Notes under the pieces: model-generated | Databases searched by the model: none | Told to the model about the DNA's origin: nothing | Seen by the model: the letters and a program-made list of their open reading frames with translations, nothing else | In this document: piece after piece, positions 8,792 to 60,386 of the stretch | Numbering within the stretch: the first letter of the stretch is position 1 | Layout: every line of letters starts with the position of its first letter | NCBI GenBank assembly: GCA_937907245.1 | Contig: CALCUM010000003.1 | Coordinates: 931,501 to 995,500, forward strand | Reading direction: 5' to 3' | From: an uncultured Rhodobiaceae bacterium | GTDB lineage: Bacteria > Pseudomonadota > Alphaproteobacteria > RS24 | DNA: 64,000 bases | Position numbers and translations under genes: made by a program

Positions 8792-8878
8792 GGAGAGGTG
8801 CCAGAGTGGTTGAATGGGGCGGTCTCGAAAACCGTTGAGCGTTTACGCGTTCCGGGGGTTCGAATCCCTCCCTCTCCG
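8792..8878 (+). tRNA. tRNA-Ser (anticodon CGA)
   Basis: The acceptor strand GGAGAGG at 8792 pairs with CCTCTCC at 8871-8877. The anticodon arm GCGGT-CTCGAAA-ACCGT gives anticodon CGA, reading UCG serine codons. A long variable arm and the T-arm GGGGGTTCGAATCCC follow. The 3' CCA is not encoded (GCG follows the acceptor), so it must be added after transcription. The repeat array begins about 45 bp downstream. Confidence 0.95.
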
Positions 8879-8886
8879 CGCTAAAA

Positions 8887-8916
8887 GGGCTAGGTTGCCA
8901 AAGGCAACCCCAGCCC
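8887..8916 (+). other. Nested hairpin between tRNA-Ser and the repeat array
   Basis: An outer stem GGGCT/AGCCC encloses an inner stem GGTTGCC-AAA-GGCAACC. The arrangement resembles the hairpins inside the downstream 123-bp units but has a different sequence. No T-run follows, so it is not a standard terminator. It may be a processing or folding element of the tRNA precursor, or a diverged piece of the array. Confidence 0.6.
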
Positions 8917-8922
8917 GCCTTG

Positions 8923-9592
8923 CGCCAGCGTAGGGCTACTCAGCCCGCAGTCGGCCGTAGCGAAAATATAAAAATCGTTCCATCGCATTACTCTTTACGA
9001 GGGGCAAGGCACCCTAAGCCAACAAGTTGGCAAGGGTTTATAGCCCGCCAGCGTAGGGCTACTCAGCCCGCAGTCGGCCGTAGCGAAAATATAAAAATCG
9101 TTCCATCGCATTACTCTTTACGAGGGGCAAGGCACCCTAAGCCAATAAGTTGGCAAGGGTTTATAGCCCGCCAGCGTAGGGGCCACGCCCCGAAGTCGGC
9201 CGTAGCGAAAATATAAAAATCATTCCATCGCATTACTCTTTACGAGGGGCAAGGCGCACTAAAGCAGCAAGCTGCTAAGTGCTTATAGCCCGCCAGCGTA
9301 GGGCTACTCAGCCCGAAGTCGGCCGTAGCGAAAATATCAAAATCGTTCCATCGCATTACTCTTTACGAGGGGCAAAGCGCACTAAAGCAGCAAGCTGCTA
9401 AGTGCTTATAGCCCGCCAGCGTAGGGCTACTTAGCCCGAAGTCGGCCGTAGCGAAAACATCAAAATCGTTCCATCGTATTACTCTTTACGAGGGGCAAGG
9501 CGCACTAAAGCAGCAAGCTGCTAAGTGCTTATAGCCCGCCAGCGTAGGGCTACTTAGCCCGAAGTCGGCCGTAGCGAAAATATAAAAATCGC
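8923..9592. repeat. Tandem array of ~123-bp structured repeats (five full copies plus a partial sixth)
   Basis: Units start at 8923, 9046, 9169, 9293, 9414 and 9537 with cgccagcgtaggg. Each carries a first hairpin, GGGCT-ACTC-AGCCC, and near its end a second hairpin flanked by GGC...GCC. Between copies both stems change on both sides at once. Hairpin 1 becomes GGGGC-CAC-GCCCC in copy 3. Hairpin 2 changes from ACCCT/AGGGT enclosing GCCAAC-AA-GTTGGC (copy 1) to GCACT/AGTGC enclosing AGCAGC-AA-GCTGCT (copies 3-5). The stretches between the hairpins (cggccgtagcgaaaatat, attactctttacgagggg) are nearly invariant. There are no spacers, so it is not CRISPR. The 8617-9607 stretch holds only this array, the small hairpin and the tRNA; I see no protein gene in it. 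Confidence 0.92.
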
Positions 9593-9607: not shown

Positions 9608-10459
9608 CTACTTCCGCACAAGCCCCATCTGCTTAGCAATCATCTTATCGGCCCATCGTTTCGGCAGCATCGCCAGAAAACGGTTCTGCCCGGACTGCAC
9701 ATCAATCCGATAGCGCGTTTTCGGCTTGGCGCTCGTCAAAATATTCAGCGCGCGTTGGGAAATCACATCCGGCTCGCAGCCGGCTTTTTCCATGCCTTCG
9801 GTGAGGCCGATAACTTTTGTGATGGCTTTGCGATATGGCGAATTATCATAGCGCGCCAACATGGGATCTTTGTCGACTTTGCCCCAAATGGCGGTTTTTA
9901 CCGGTCCTGGCGCGATGATAACCACATCAATGCCAAATAACATTAGCTCGCGACGCAAGGCTTCAGAAAACCCTTCGAGGCCGAATTTACTCATATTATA
10001 GGCGCCCATGAAGGGCATGCCGGCCTCACCGGAAACGGAGCTTATGTTAATAATTTTGCCCGGCGCGCCCGTGCGTTCTGTGTCGGCGCCTAGCAGCCCC
10101 ATGAAGGCTTGGGTGCAATGGAAAACGCCCATGAGGTTCACGTCAAATTGATAGCGAAACTCTTCGGCGCTGAGATTTTGAATGGCGCCGAATACCGCGA
10201 TGCCGGCGTTGTTAATCAGGCCAGCCAGTTTCTCGCCGTTTAACTCGGCTTCCACTTGCTTGGCGGCGGCCTGCACGTCTTTTTCGTTGGTTACGTCGAA
10301 AACGAGCGGCATAAAGGTTTTGCCCAGCTCAGCGGAAACCGCTTCGCCATCGGCCTTGTTGCGAACCGAGCCGAAAACCCGATAGCCATTTTCCACCAGT
10401 GTTTTAGAAATTTGACGACCAATTCCAGAGGACGCTCCGGTAACCACGACTGACAACAT
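9608..10459 (-). CDS. Short-chain dehydrogenase/reductase (SDR) with long C-terminal region
   Basis: A 283-residue classical SDR. TGASSGIG is at 7-14, NNAG at ~83-86, the catalytic serine near 141 and YNMSK at 154-158. An arginine after the second strand (SVRNK) suggests NADP(H). The frame continues upstream to 10555, but ATG 10459 follows GGGAGAG and places the glycine motif at the usual distance from the start. The C-terminal part (KTRYRIDVQSGQNRFLAML) is typical of SDRs related to retinol/17-beta-hydroxysteroid dehydrogenases. It lies divergent from the first P450 gene with a short shared regulatory gap. Confidence 0.87.
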   Translation of the reverse strand: MLSVVVTGASSGIGRQISKTLVENGYRVFGSVRNKADGEAVSAELGKTFMPLVFDVTNEKDVQAAAKQVEAELNGEKLAGLINNAGIAVFGAIQNLSAEEFRYQFDVNLMGVFHCTQAFMGLLGADTERTGAPGKIINISSVSGEAGMPFMGAYNMSKFGLEGFSEALRRELMLFGIDVVIIAPGPVKTAIWGKVDKDPMLARYDNSPYRKAITKVIGLTEGMEKAGCEPDVISQRALNILTSAKPKTRYRIDVQSGQNRFLAMLPKRWADKMIAKQMGLVRK

Positions 10460-10582
10460 TTTTCTCTCCCAATTAATATTCGCGCCAAACCTAGCACGCC
10501 CGTGTTTGTATGCAACGCCTTGGATGCGCGATCTAGTTTTGATGGGTTTGTGCAATTAATCTCCGCTGTCTCCGCTTTGCGC

Positions 10583-28317: not shown

Positions 28318-28425
28318 CGCCTTCGGTCTCTACTCGGCGCCTTCAATCTCTACTCAGCGCCTTCGGTCTCTACTCAGCGCCTTCCGTCTCTATTCAGCGC
28401 CTTCCGTCTCTATTCAGCGCCTTCG
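28318..28425. repeat. 20-bp tandem repeat, five copies, grown from the 3' end of nudC
   Basis: Five head-to-tail 20-bp units of the form cttcggtctctactcagcgc fill the gap between convergent pheA and nudC and run into nudC. On the minus strand the nudC-proximal unit supplies the last codons (…Gly-Ala-Glu) and the TAG stop. The others repeat this after the stop with small changes (tatt/tact, cggt/ccgt/caat). There are no variable spacers, so it is not CRISPR. Confidence 0.9.
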
Positions 28426-29354
28426 GCGAAGGCTTTCATCAATTGATGCGCGATGGCCATTTCGGGCGGAACGCCAAGCGGCCCTTGGCCAGCCATCGAC
28501 GAAATAATATCGCTACGCGAAACCCAGCGCGCTTCTTCGAGTTCCACTTCATCGACCTGAATGTCGCGATGCGCCGCCTTGGCCATACAGCCGATCATCA
28601 AAGAGCCCGGAAACGGCCAAGGTTGCGAGCCTAAATAGCTCACACTCGACACTTCAATACCGGCCTCTTCCATCAGTTCGCGCGCGACCGCTTCTTCCAA
28701 GGTCTCGCCGGGTTCCATAAAGCCTGCCAAGGCGCTTAGCATGCCGTCAGGCCAGCCGCGTTGGCGCCCGAGCAAGCAATCTTCGCCATGGGTGGCCAGC
28801 ATAATGACCACCGGGTCGGTGCGTGGAAAATGTTCGGTGCCGCAATTATCGCATTTGCGTTTATAGCCGCCTTCGGCGCTTTGGCTGGCGTGGCCGCATT
28901 GCGCGCAAAATGGCGTGCGGAGGTTCCAATCCAACATGCCTTTGGCCTGTGCCAAAATGGCCAGCTCGGTGCGTGCCATATCGCCAGCCGCGGCGAGGCC
29001 GCGTAAATCCTCAAAATGCCCCATGCCTTTGAAAGGCCCCATGTCTTCGGGCGCGCTCATATGGCTGATGTCGGCGGCAAATAATGGTTTTTGGCGCCGG
29101 TTGAGCCCGAGAAAAACCACTTGCATGGTGTCGCTCCAAGCCTCGCCAAAAGCGGCTTTGGGCAAATAGCCCACATCGCGCCCATCGCCAGGTTGCAGCT
29201 CTGGCAATACCAGCGGGTTCAATTGCCACAGCGGCACAATCAAAGCGTCGTCGGAGGCAAGCTGGGCGGCCACCCAGTCAGGGTTCGGGCGCAAATGACC
29301 CGCTCGGTCTAGCGGATTATTGGCGAACATAATGGGGTTATCGGGCAGGGCCAT
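28410..29354 (-). CDS. nudC: NAD(+) diphosphatase NudC (possible RNA NAD-decapping enzyme)
   Basis: A 314-residue Nudix hydrolase of the NudC type. A four-cysteine zinc ribbon (CAQCGHAS…CDNCGTEH) lies near the middle. The Nudix box is GFMEPGETLEEAVAREL followed by MEEAGI, and the SQPWPFPGSLM motif that defines NADH-specific members is present. It splits NAD(H) to NMN(H) and AMP, and in E. coli removes NAD caps from RNA. ATG 29354 is chosen because GGAG lies upstream. Its last codons are part of a 20-bp tandem duplication. Confidence 0.95.
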   Translation of the reverse strand: MALPDNPIMFANNPLDRAGHLRPNPDWVAAQLASDDALIVPLWQLNPLVLPELQPGDGRDVGYLPKAAFGEAWSDTMQVVFLGLNRRQKPLFAADISHMSAPEDMGPFKGMGHFEDLRGLAAAGDMARTELAILAQAKGMLDWNLRTPFCAQCGHASQSAEGGYKRKCDNCGTEHFPRTDPVVIMLATHGEDCLLGRQRGWPDGMLSALAGFMEPGETLEEAVARELMEEAGIEVSSVSYLGSQPWPFPGSLMIGCMAKAAHRDIQVDEVELEEARWVSRSDIISSMAGQGPLGVPPEMAIAHQLMKAFAEGAE

Positions 29355-59777: not shown

Positions 59778-60386
59778 TTAACGGCTTCCCAAAACAAGAA
59801 CGCCGCCTAGGAAAAACAATATAGCGGCCAGCGTGACCGCGAAAAATTGAAACTTATTGGCGATGCCCCCAGCATTTGGCGCGTCGAGGGTTTGGCTAGG
59901 CTGAGGCGCTGGGCTTGGCTCTACTTCTGGCTCAACTTCCAGCTCTACTTCGAGTTCTACTTCTGGCTCAACTTCGGGCTCTATTTCTCGCTCTGGCTCT
60001 GGCTCTATTTCTGGCTCAAGCTCGGGCTTTATTTCTGGTTCAGGCTCAGGCTTTATTTCTGGTTCAAGCTCTGGCTCTACCAGAGCCTCCAGTTCTATCG
60101 GGGCTTCGGCGATGACGGTTGGTTTCGTTTCTTCCTGCATCGCTTTGGGGCGCTCGGGGGCGCTCAACCAGGCTGGAAGGCTGCCAATTTCTGGTTCGGG
60201 TTTTGGTTCAACAGGCGCTTCTGCTTGCGCTGTAGGGGCAAACTTGCTGGCACACCGGGTGCAGCTGATGCGCACATGGGCGGTTTCTTTTAGGGTTTCA
60301 GCCAAAACATCACGAGGCACTGAGCCGCGTTGCCCGCAAGCTGGGCATTCAAAATGTGAGTTGGTTTCGTCTTCGAATAGAAACAA
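59778..60386 (-). CDS. Zinc-ribbon (MJ0042-type) protein with acidic Glu-Pro repeat and C-terminal membrane helix
   Basis: A 202-residue protein in three parts. Residues ~13-45 contain two CxxC pairs ([16 protein letters not shown]), an MJ0042-type zinc ribbon. Residues ~55-165 are dominated by Pro-Glu and Glu-Val repeats ([20 protein letters not shown]). A C-terminal hydrophobic helix (~180-198) anchors it in the membrane with the ribbon in the cytoplasm. MJ0042 ribbons are common at the start of alphaproteobacterial membrane proteins of unknown role. The repeat makes the reverse strand look like a long Leu/Trp-rich protein, which is an artefact. Confidence 0.75.

Follow-up and report, generated by a model that had tools for sequence, protein, structure and literature searches.

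A tandem hairpin array behind a tRNA-Ser gene probably belongs to a new, clade-specific family of small mobile palindromes

Behind a tRNA-Ser gene of an uncultured Rhodobiaceae bacterium lies a tandem array whose two hairpins differ between units on both arms at once. The question raised by this locus is whether such paired changes reflect selection on a folded element or, the other origin considered in the initial annotation, the import of differing copies by recombination. The array lies in a window of 64,000 nucleotides, the whole stretch of DNA that was analysed. Its host genome is alphaproteobacterial and comprises 1.8 Mb on three contigs; the nearest named relatives are MAGs labelled Rhodobiaceae, Alphaproteobacteria or PS1 clade, the last being an Alphaproteobacteria incertae sedis group.

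TRF placed the array at 8923-9591 (period 123, 5.4 copies, 93% matches, score 1084), in agreement with the ~123-bp repeat first described. It consists of five units of 123, 123, 122, 123 and 123 bp, which start at 8924, 9047, 9170, 9292 and 9415, and of a partial sixth unit (9538-9591) equal to the opening 54 bp of every unit save for point changes. The whole (8924-9591) can be written as a 54-bp duplicated target, a 24-bp filler and a 45-bp hairpin 2 (H2), five times over (54 + 24 + 45 = 123) and followed by one more target (Table 1). It is bordered by tRNA-Ser(CGA) on one side and by the 3′ end of an opposite-strand short-chain dehydrogenase (SDR) gene on the other; just outside the range originally noted, an inverted H2 copy at 8878-8925 lies directly against the tRNA. 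In its own genome the full-length unit is found at this locus only, with partial matches 3′ of other tRNA genes. Elsewhere in the window, TRF reported further tandem repeats at 28318-28426 (period 20, 5.4 copies) and 59916-60079 (period 12/24/48).

The hairpin sequences were as initially reported: hairpin 1 (H1) reads GGGCT/AGCCC in five of the six copies and GGGGC/GCCCC in the third, and the arm types of H2 in copies 1, 2 and 3-5 are those listed in Table 1. Between units 1 and 3, ten bases of H2 differ, corresponding to five base pairs that are each altered on both arms; two pairs of H1 differ likewise, and a single C-to-T change in H2 of unit 2 produces a wobble pair. The coordinated changes are real, but they amount to seven pairs (five in H2 and two in H1; 14 bases) rather than about ten, and the flanking bases, thought to be fixed, vary as well (e.g. 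AAAATATAAAAATCG, AAAATATCAAAATCG and AAAACATCAAAATCG). Since single units fold only modestly better than shuffled sequences (z of -1.0 to -2.7), the case stands on covariation, not on stability.

Table 1. Features of the array in the window; names of targets and insertions follow the proposed history of the locus.
Feature	Position	Strand	Support
tRNA-Ser(CGA) gene	8792..8879	+	ARAGORN, Rfam, sequence, junction table
Oldest H2 copy, antisense, flush with tRNA 3′ end	8878..8925	-	R1 59.3 bits; orthologues
Target copy 1, 54 bp: hairpin H1 (8924-8955) and flank ending AAAATATAAAAATCG	8924..8977	+	
24-bp filler TTCCATCGCATTACTCTTTACGAG, left part of the putative inserted element	8978..9001	+	
H2 unit 1, arms ACCCT..GCCAAC/GTTGGC..AGGGT	9002..9046	+	R1 63.1 bits; same arms in G005 L078
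Duplicated target, unit 2	9047..9100	+	
H2 unit 2, C-to-T wobble	9125..9169	+	R1 57.6 bits
Duplicated target, unit 3, 53 bp; H1 arms GGGGC/GCCCC	9170..9222	+	
H2 unit 3, arms GCACT..AGCAGC/GCTGCT..AGTGC	9247..9291	+	R1 67.5 bits; same arms in G011 L079
Duplicated target, unit 4	9292..9345	+	
H2 unit 4	9370..9414	+	R1 65.9 bits
Duplicated target, unit 5	9415..9468	+	
H2 unit 5	9493..9537	+	R1 67.5 bits
Closing 54-bp target copy; then unique sequence and SDR gene 3′ end (9608-10555, minus strand)	9538..9591	+	

The window array is not a private structured RNA; both of its hairpins belong to a dispersed family that is restricted to one marine alphaproteobacterial lineage. A covariance model of H2 (R1), built from 19 seeds, detected the hairpin in all 12 genomes of the genus, with at least 4 to at least 22 copies in each and at least 21 in the own genome; these are lower bounds, as 150 candidates were scored per genome. 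At E values of 1e-6 or better, the sister genera contributed three copies (G013) and one copy (G014), and a sample of 190 alphaproteobacterial genomes, searched with stricter filters, gave matches at 1e-6 in the own genome and G013 only. Related hairpins lie downstream of the tRNA genes for Ser(CGA), Ser(GGA), Leu(TAA), Met and Thr(GGT). The family is new and previously unnamed: Rfam returned only tRNA and weak matches overlapping tRNA, whether the gathering score or a limit of E up to 1 was applied, a plasmid DNA search in distant mode and a search of viral contigs with the H2 pattern gave no match, and literature searches yielded nothing on repeats in the PS1 clade or on this element. According to the initial annotation, a covariance search that found this locus alone, without significant covariation, would, together with a lack of transcription, have left a neutral tandem repeat. 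The search instead returned a whole family with very strong covariation. A neutral repeat of no wider meaning, to which the shortness of the region and its lack of a known function might point, is refuted by this result and scarcely credible, as boxes, pairing and junctions are conserved family-wide.

Alignment of 118 copies revealed a constant layout, GCGCAAGGCG-arm-CTA..loop..AG-arm′-CTTTTAGCG, in which the boxes GCGCAAGGCG and CTTTTAGCGY flank variable stems. H1 is built alike, its variable stem being enclosed by constant CCAGCG and AGTCGG boxes; it often precedes H2 in reverse (GCCGACTT..CGCTG) and adjoins it in 45 of the 118 copies. The covariance model was confined to H2, MAFFT having misplaced two divergent H1 rows. 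A third type of hairpin (GCGTCTCG..CTCGCTTGCGC) can take the place of H1 before H2 (L118, L157, L128, L164), which makes the family modular.

Over the 110 distinct copies, 15 of 17 H2 pairs were altered on both sides, 95.6% of cells were paired (36-47% in partner-slid controls), and 342 cells had changed on both sides vs 93 in shuffles. These counts lean towards the model to which the alignment was fitted; a MAFFT-only seed alignment gave the same pattern, with both-sided change at 12 of 17 pairs. Two column pairs, 9/72 (G.T) and 10/71 (C.T), are invariant non-Watson-Crick positions (109/110 each), and A.A is common further out in the stem. The arms are hypervariable yet complementary, around invariant unpaired or wobble boxes.

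Significant covariation is what a structured RNA should display. Under this explanation, the units are, or once were, co-transcribed with tRNA-Ser, their shape is under selection (e.g. as 3′ processing signals, terminators or stabilisers), and compensatory mutation creates the covariation; besides the great strength of the covariation, it is favoured by the location of copies immediately after tRNA genes and at the 3′ ends of genes. We nevertheless regard it as unlikely. Stepwise compensation in RNA normally leaves wobble intermediates behind, but these made up just 0.95% of standard pairs, whereas the tRNAs of these genomes have a share of 6.8% in their acceptor and T stems (Fisher p ~1e-12; the lower figure omits two wobble-dominated pairs, and the p value is only indicative, the copies being related). 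Wobble pairs being so rare, the arms probably change in blocks and not by compensating one pair at a time. Furthermore, arms are swapped wholesale between orthologues, copies may face either way with respect to tRNA genes, an Rfam match is absent, and the H2 strand folds no better than its complement. A strand preference, suggested by the G.T boxes, is not supported on this last ground: the complementary strand folds slightly better, with the bottom strand lower in 79-82 of 118 copies.

Intact versions of the arm types seen in the window also occur at other loci. The type of units 1-2 is present in G005 beside tRNA-Ser(GGA), and G011 has the type of units 3-5 downstream of its tRNA-Ser(GGA). 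The arms of the older antisense copy behind tRNA-Ser(CGA) read GGTTGCC in the own genome, G004 and G001 but GGCAGC in G005, where the copy is nearly identical to that genome's own tRNA-Ser(GGA) copy. The simplest account of the arm differences is that copies within one genome exchange hairpin modules, a view favoured over RNA compensation by the intact arm types elsewhere, by orthologues with wholly different arms and by the near absence of wobble intermediates. Regarding the two origins initially considered, the pattern thus favours the exchange of whole hairpin modules, together with pairing at the DNA level. Template switching between arms, which has been put forward as a way to make compensatory changes in one step (PMC8794818), can add to module exchange; the persistence of the mismatched boxes implies that arm-to-arm copying is not free.

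How did the copies reach their sites? Flush direct repeats of 11-93 bp (score ≥ 11) bracket 37 of the 118 copies, compared with a maximum score of 8 for unrelated flank pairs; array units and orthologues are included in this number, which by inspection corresponds to roughly twenty independent loci. In nearly all of them the second repeat copy begins flush at the 3′ end of H2. The repeated sequences comprise tRNA 3′ tails, tRNA 5′ ends, terminator T-runs and ends of coding genes including the stop codon. For the remaining two thirds of the 118 copies, a direct repeat was not detectable. A search of the genus for predicted element-free sites showed three of the occupied sites to be uninterrupted elsewhere: G011 and G006 lack the element of the G002 C45 site, G008, G003 and G010 that of the G009 C48 site, and G004, G001, G005 and the own genome that of the G009 thioesterase site. 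At the thioesterase site, G002, G010 and G011 hold element remnants that lack the second repeat, which could have been lost in these three genomes or later gained in G009. An imperfect tandem duplication of ~19 bp, with no hairpin, is found in G009 (L171, G009:C37:1431-1849) at the site matching the G002 C45 insertion and is possibly the footprint of a lost copy. Target duplication upon insertion is the best reading of these sites, if not proven in every case.

The window site permits a similar comparison. The oldest antisense H2 copy is common to the own genome, G004, G001 and G005. In G004 and G001, the tRNA is followed by this copy, H1 and the dehydrogenase gene, with the 54-bp target in single copy and the insertion absent; G005 has the same insertion 3′ of the same tRNA, with a related filler at the equivalent position, and at a contig end elsewhere it carries an array of the same unit design with different arms. 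An insertion with 54-bp duplication, followed by amplification between the duplicates, fits the ends of the array, the uninterrupted site of G004 and G001 and the insertion in G005. The relatives are MAGs or draft assemblies, and the length of such arrays may be misassembled. Both G000:C2:1-321 and G000:C3:1041668-1041714 (L030, L113, L114) are contig ends of the own genome that carry the tRNA-Thr(GGT) array, composed of hairpin and tRNA tail, and contigs C2 and C3 probably join there.

From these comparisons, we consider it likely that the array represents one amplified copy out of a family of small, mobile but non-autonomous palindromes that is specific to this clade and would insert in a REP/YPAL-like manner with long target duplications. 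On insertion, the 3′ end of a copy would be fixed and its 5′ end variable, and the target duplication would be long and differ in length from case to case; most insertions would fall at the 3′ ends of tRNA genes, of coding genes and of terminators. The history of the window array would begin with the entry of an older antisense copy behind tRNA-Ser; a second insertion (the 24-bp filler and H2) would then have duplicated 54 bp of this older copy, and recombination or slippage between the duplicates would have amplified the 123-bp unit five times. The arms would differ between units because other family members donated or converted hairpin modules, or because template switching rewrote them, and not by stepwise compensation.

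Alternatively, nothing may have moved: hairpins could have arisen and spread solely through tandem duplication in place, through homologous recombination among tRNA loci and through the repair of quasi-palindromes by template switching, the direct repeats being products of slippage at pre-existing hairpins. Arrays do grow locally (window, tRNA-Thr, tRNA-Ser-GGA), similar copies are common to the tRNA-Ser loci within one genome, and template switching reportedly gives rise to stems and contributes to their maintenance (PMC8794818). The thioesterase-site remnants without repeat also agree with this, as does one filler (G001, L121) that holds an inverted target copy beside the target. However, arm-to-arm copying would erase the conserved mismatched boxes, which survive; element-free orthologous sites lie at unrelated genes; and the junction at CCA is exact in eight tRNA species with different tails. 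We therefore judge the immobile alternative somewhat unlikely.

Copies of the family tend to lie at the ends of tRNA and other genes. Three of 118 copies lie within ORFs of ≥ 200 aa; with respect to long ORFs, the closest end is the 3′ one for 78 copies and the 5′ one for 40, and 51 of 118 have a tRNA gene within 300 bp. Antisense copies downstream of tRNA genes sit exactly flush at the 3′ end, ..CCA being followed at once by CGCTAAAAG.., in Tyr, Ser(GGA), Ser(CGA), Ser(GCT), Ser(TGA), Leu(TAA), Met and, in G013 of a sister genus, Arg; none of these CCA-flush copies showed a direct repeat. The tRNA-Ser(CGA) gene of the window has no encoded CCA, and the element abuts its discriminator base (..CTCTCCG followed by CGCTAAAAG). 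This arrangement, with no encoded CCA and a direct junction, recurs at tRNA-Ser(CGA) of G004, G001 and G005 and at tRNA-Ser(GGA) of G011 (L079), whereas most other tRNA genes in these genomes encode CCA; the tRNAs of the genes without it must depend on CCA addition. A transcript-end-directed element, in which the fixed 3′ end of the hairpin is joined during copying to mature RNA 3′ ends (tRNA CCA or transcript ends), is a conceivable but quite improbable source of these junctions. If true, the family would be a SINE-like or tRNA-primed element of bacteria that moves with neither a reverse transcriptase nor a transposase that can be recognised.

Some copies carry a tRNA tail with no tRNA gene beside them. 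One of these, the own copy at C2:220 kb, had been read as an element carrying a tRNA tail, wrongly: comparison of flanks identified it as the right end of an island split from tRNA-Met. This verdict covers that copy, with L157, L118 and L148 outside it. In G000:C2 (~183,974-220,000; L044, L111), a stretch of ~36 kb lies between tRNA-Met and the downstream flank that it had ancestrally. The far side of this stretch bears a 51-bp copy of the tRNA 3′ end, and directly behind tRNA-Met stands an integrase-like ORF whose Pfam matches are weak and below cut-off; the stretch looks like an integrated island. In G002, a 119-bp unit of filler, H1, H2 and tRNA-Ser tail (L146, C110) recurs on a second contig at 96% identity without an adjacent tRNA gene (L148, C99), which may reflect a recent transposition or an island end.

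A search of the 12 genus genomes for a mobiliser gave no match to Y1/RAYT transposases (PF01797; five control genomes positive, including E. coli and Caulobacter) or to reverse transcriptases, as a retroposon would need (PF00078; E. coli, Bacteroides and Methanosarcina controls positive). Cas1 was dismissed as a candidate, being absent from the genus save for G005. DDE transposases leave a short target duplication of fixed length, to which the broad range of repeat lengths is unsuited; a MITE of a DDE transposon was likewise rejected, since the direct repeats span 11-93 bp and the inverted repeats are the hairpins themselves. The inverted target copy in the L121 filler is a trace of the kind left by template switching and leads us to put a replication or repair route first; mobilisation by template switching at the hairpin is, at low certainty, the likeliest route.

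Among known systems, a strict RAYT-mobilised REP family (REPIN/BIME) resembles ours in its imperfect hairpins with conserved mismatches, its modular pairs and its arrays. As in REP sequences generally, the copies are short extragenic palindromes, mostly on the 3′ side of genes and often dimeric (45 of 118 with H1 adjoining). REPs bear an unpaired GTAG or CGTC tag at one end (PMC3733652); neither tag is conserved at the consensus ends GCGCAAGGCG..CTTTTAGCGY and CCAGCG..AGTCGG. Strict membership fails on two features, the tag and the RAYT gene, and the direct repeats are long, which makes this assignment highly improbable. The CGTC REPs, abundant in alphaproteobacteria, share with our family short palindromes, dimers, a position on the gene 3′ side and the lack of a dedicated transposase, but have an AT-started 8-9 bp stem with CCA tail that is missing here along with the CGTC tag; the paper on them nowhere uses the words 'target site' and hence describes no duplications under that name (PMC3733652). 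The rtT repeats behind E. coli tyrT likewise form a tandem array downstream of a tRNA gene, and in several of our arrays (tRNA-Leu, tRNA-Thr) the unit includes the tRNA 3′ tail, as in rtT. The window unit, in contrast, has no tRNA tail, and Rfam gave no match to RtT RNA at the gathering score or at E up to 1, nor to another RNA family, in line with the first impression that the repeat differs from that of tyrT and matches no named family.

Closest in behaviour, as far as the description in the review goes, is YPAL/RU-2 of Yersinia (De Gregorio 2006, reviewed in PMC2229807). This enterobacterial, small non-autonomous palindromic insertion of 168 bp is portrayed there as having internal inverted repeats, variable target duplications of 3-26 bp, targets with dyad symmetry, filled and empty sites and no TA ends. 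Our family resembles it in its small palindromic, non-autonomous design with inverted repeats inside, in lacking TA ends, in having targets at dyad symmetries, and in its target duplications of variable length and empty orthologous sites, the thioesterase site being ambiguous. The differences from YPAL/RU-2 as portrayed are a length from ~45 bp (H2) to ~90 bp (H1 + H2), alphaproteobacterial hosts, hypervariable arms, duplications of up to 93 bp and the exact tRNA-CCA junctions.

Covariation of two arms is commonly regarded as proving that an RNA is functional. A family that combines near-absent wobble with wholesale arm replacement offers a natural case for testing whether such covariation can result from DNA-level exchange or from template switching. 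At a practical level, these repeats terminate several contigs in the assemblies. For the streamlined marine bacteria that harbour it, the family would represent a small mobile palindrome with long target duplications, an exact tRNA-CCA junction and no recognisable enzyme, and makes its mobiliser a searchable question.
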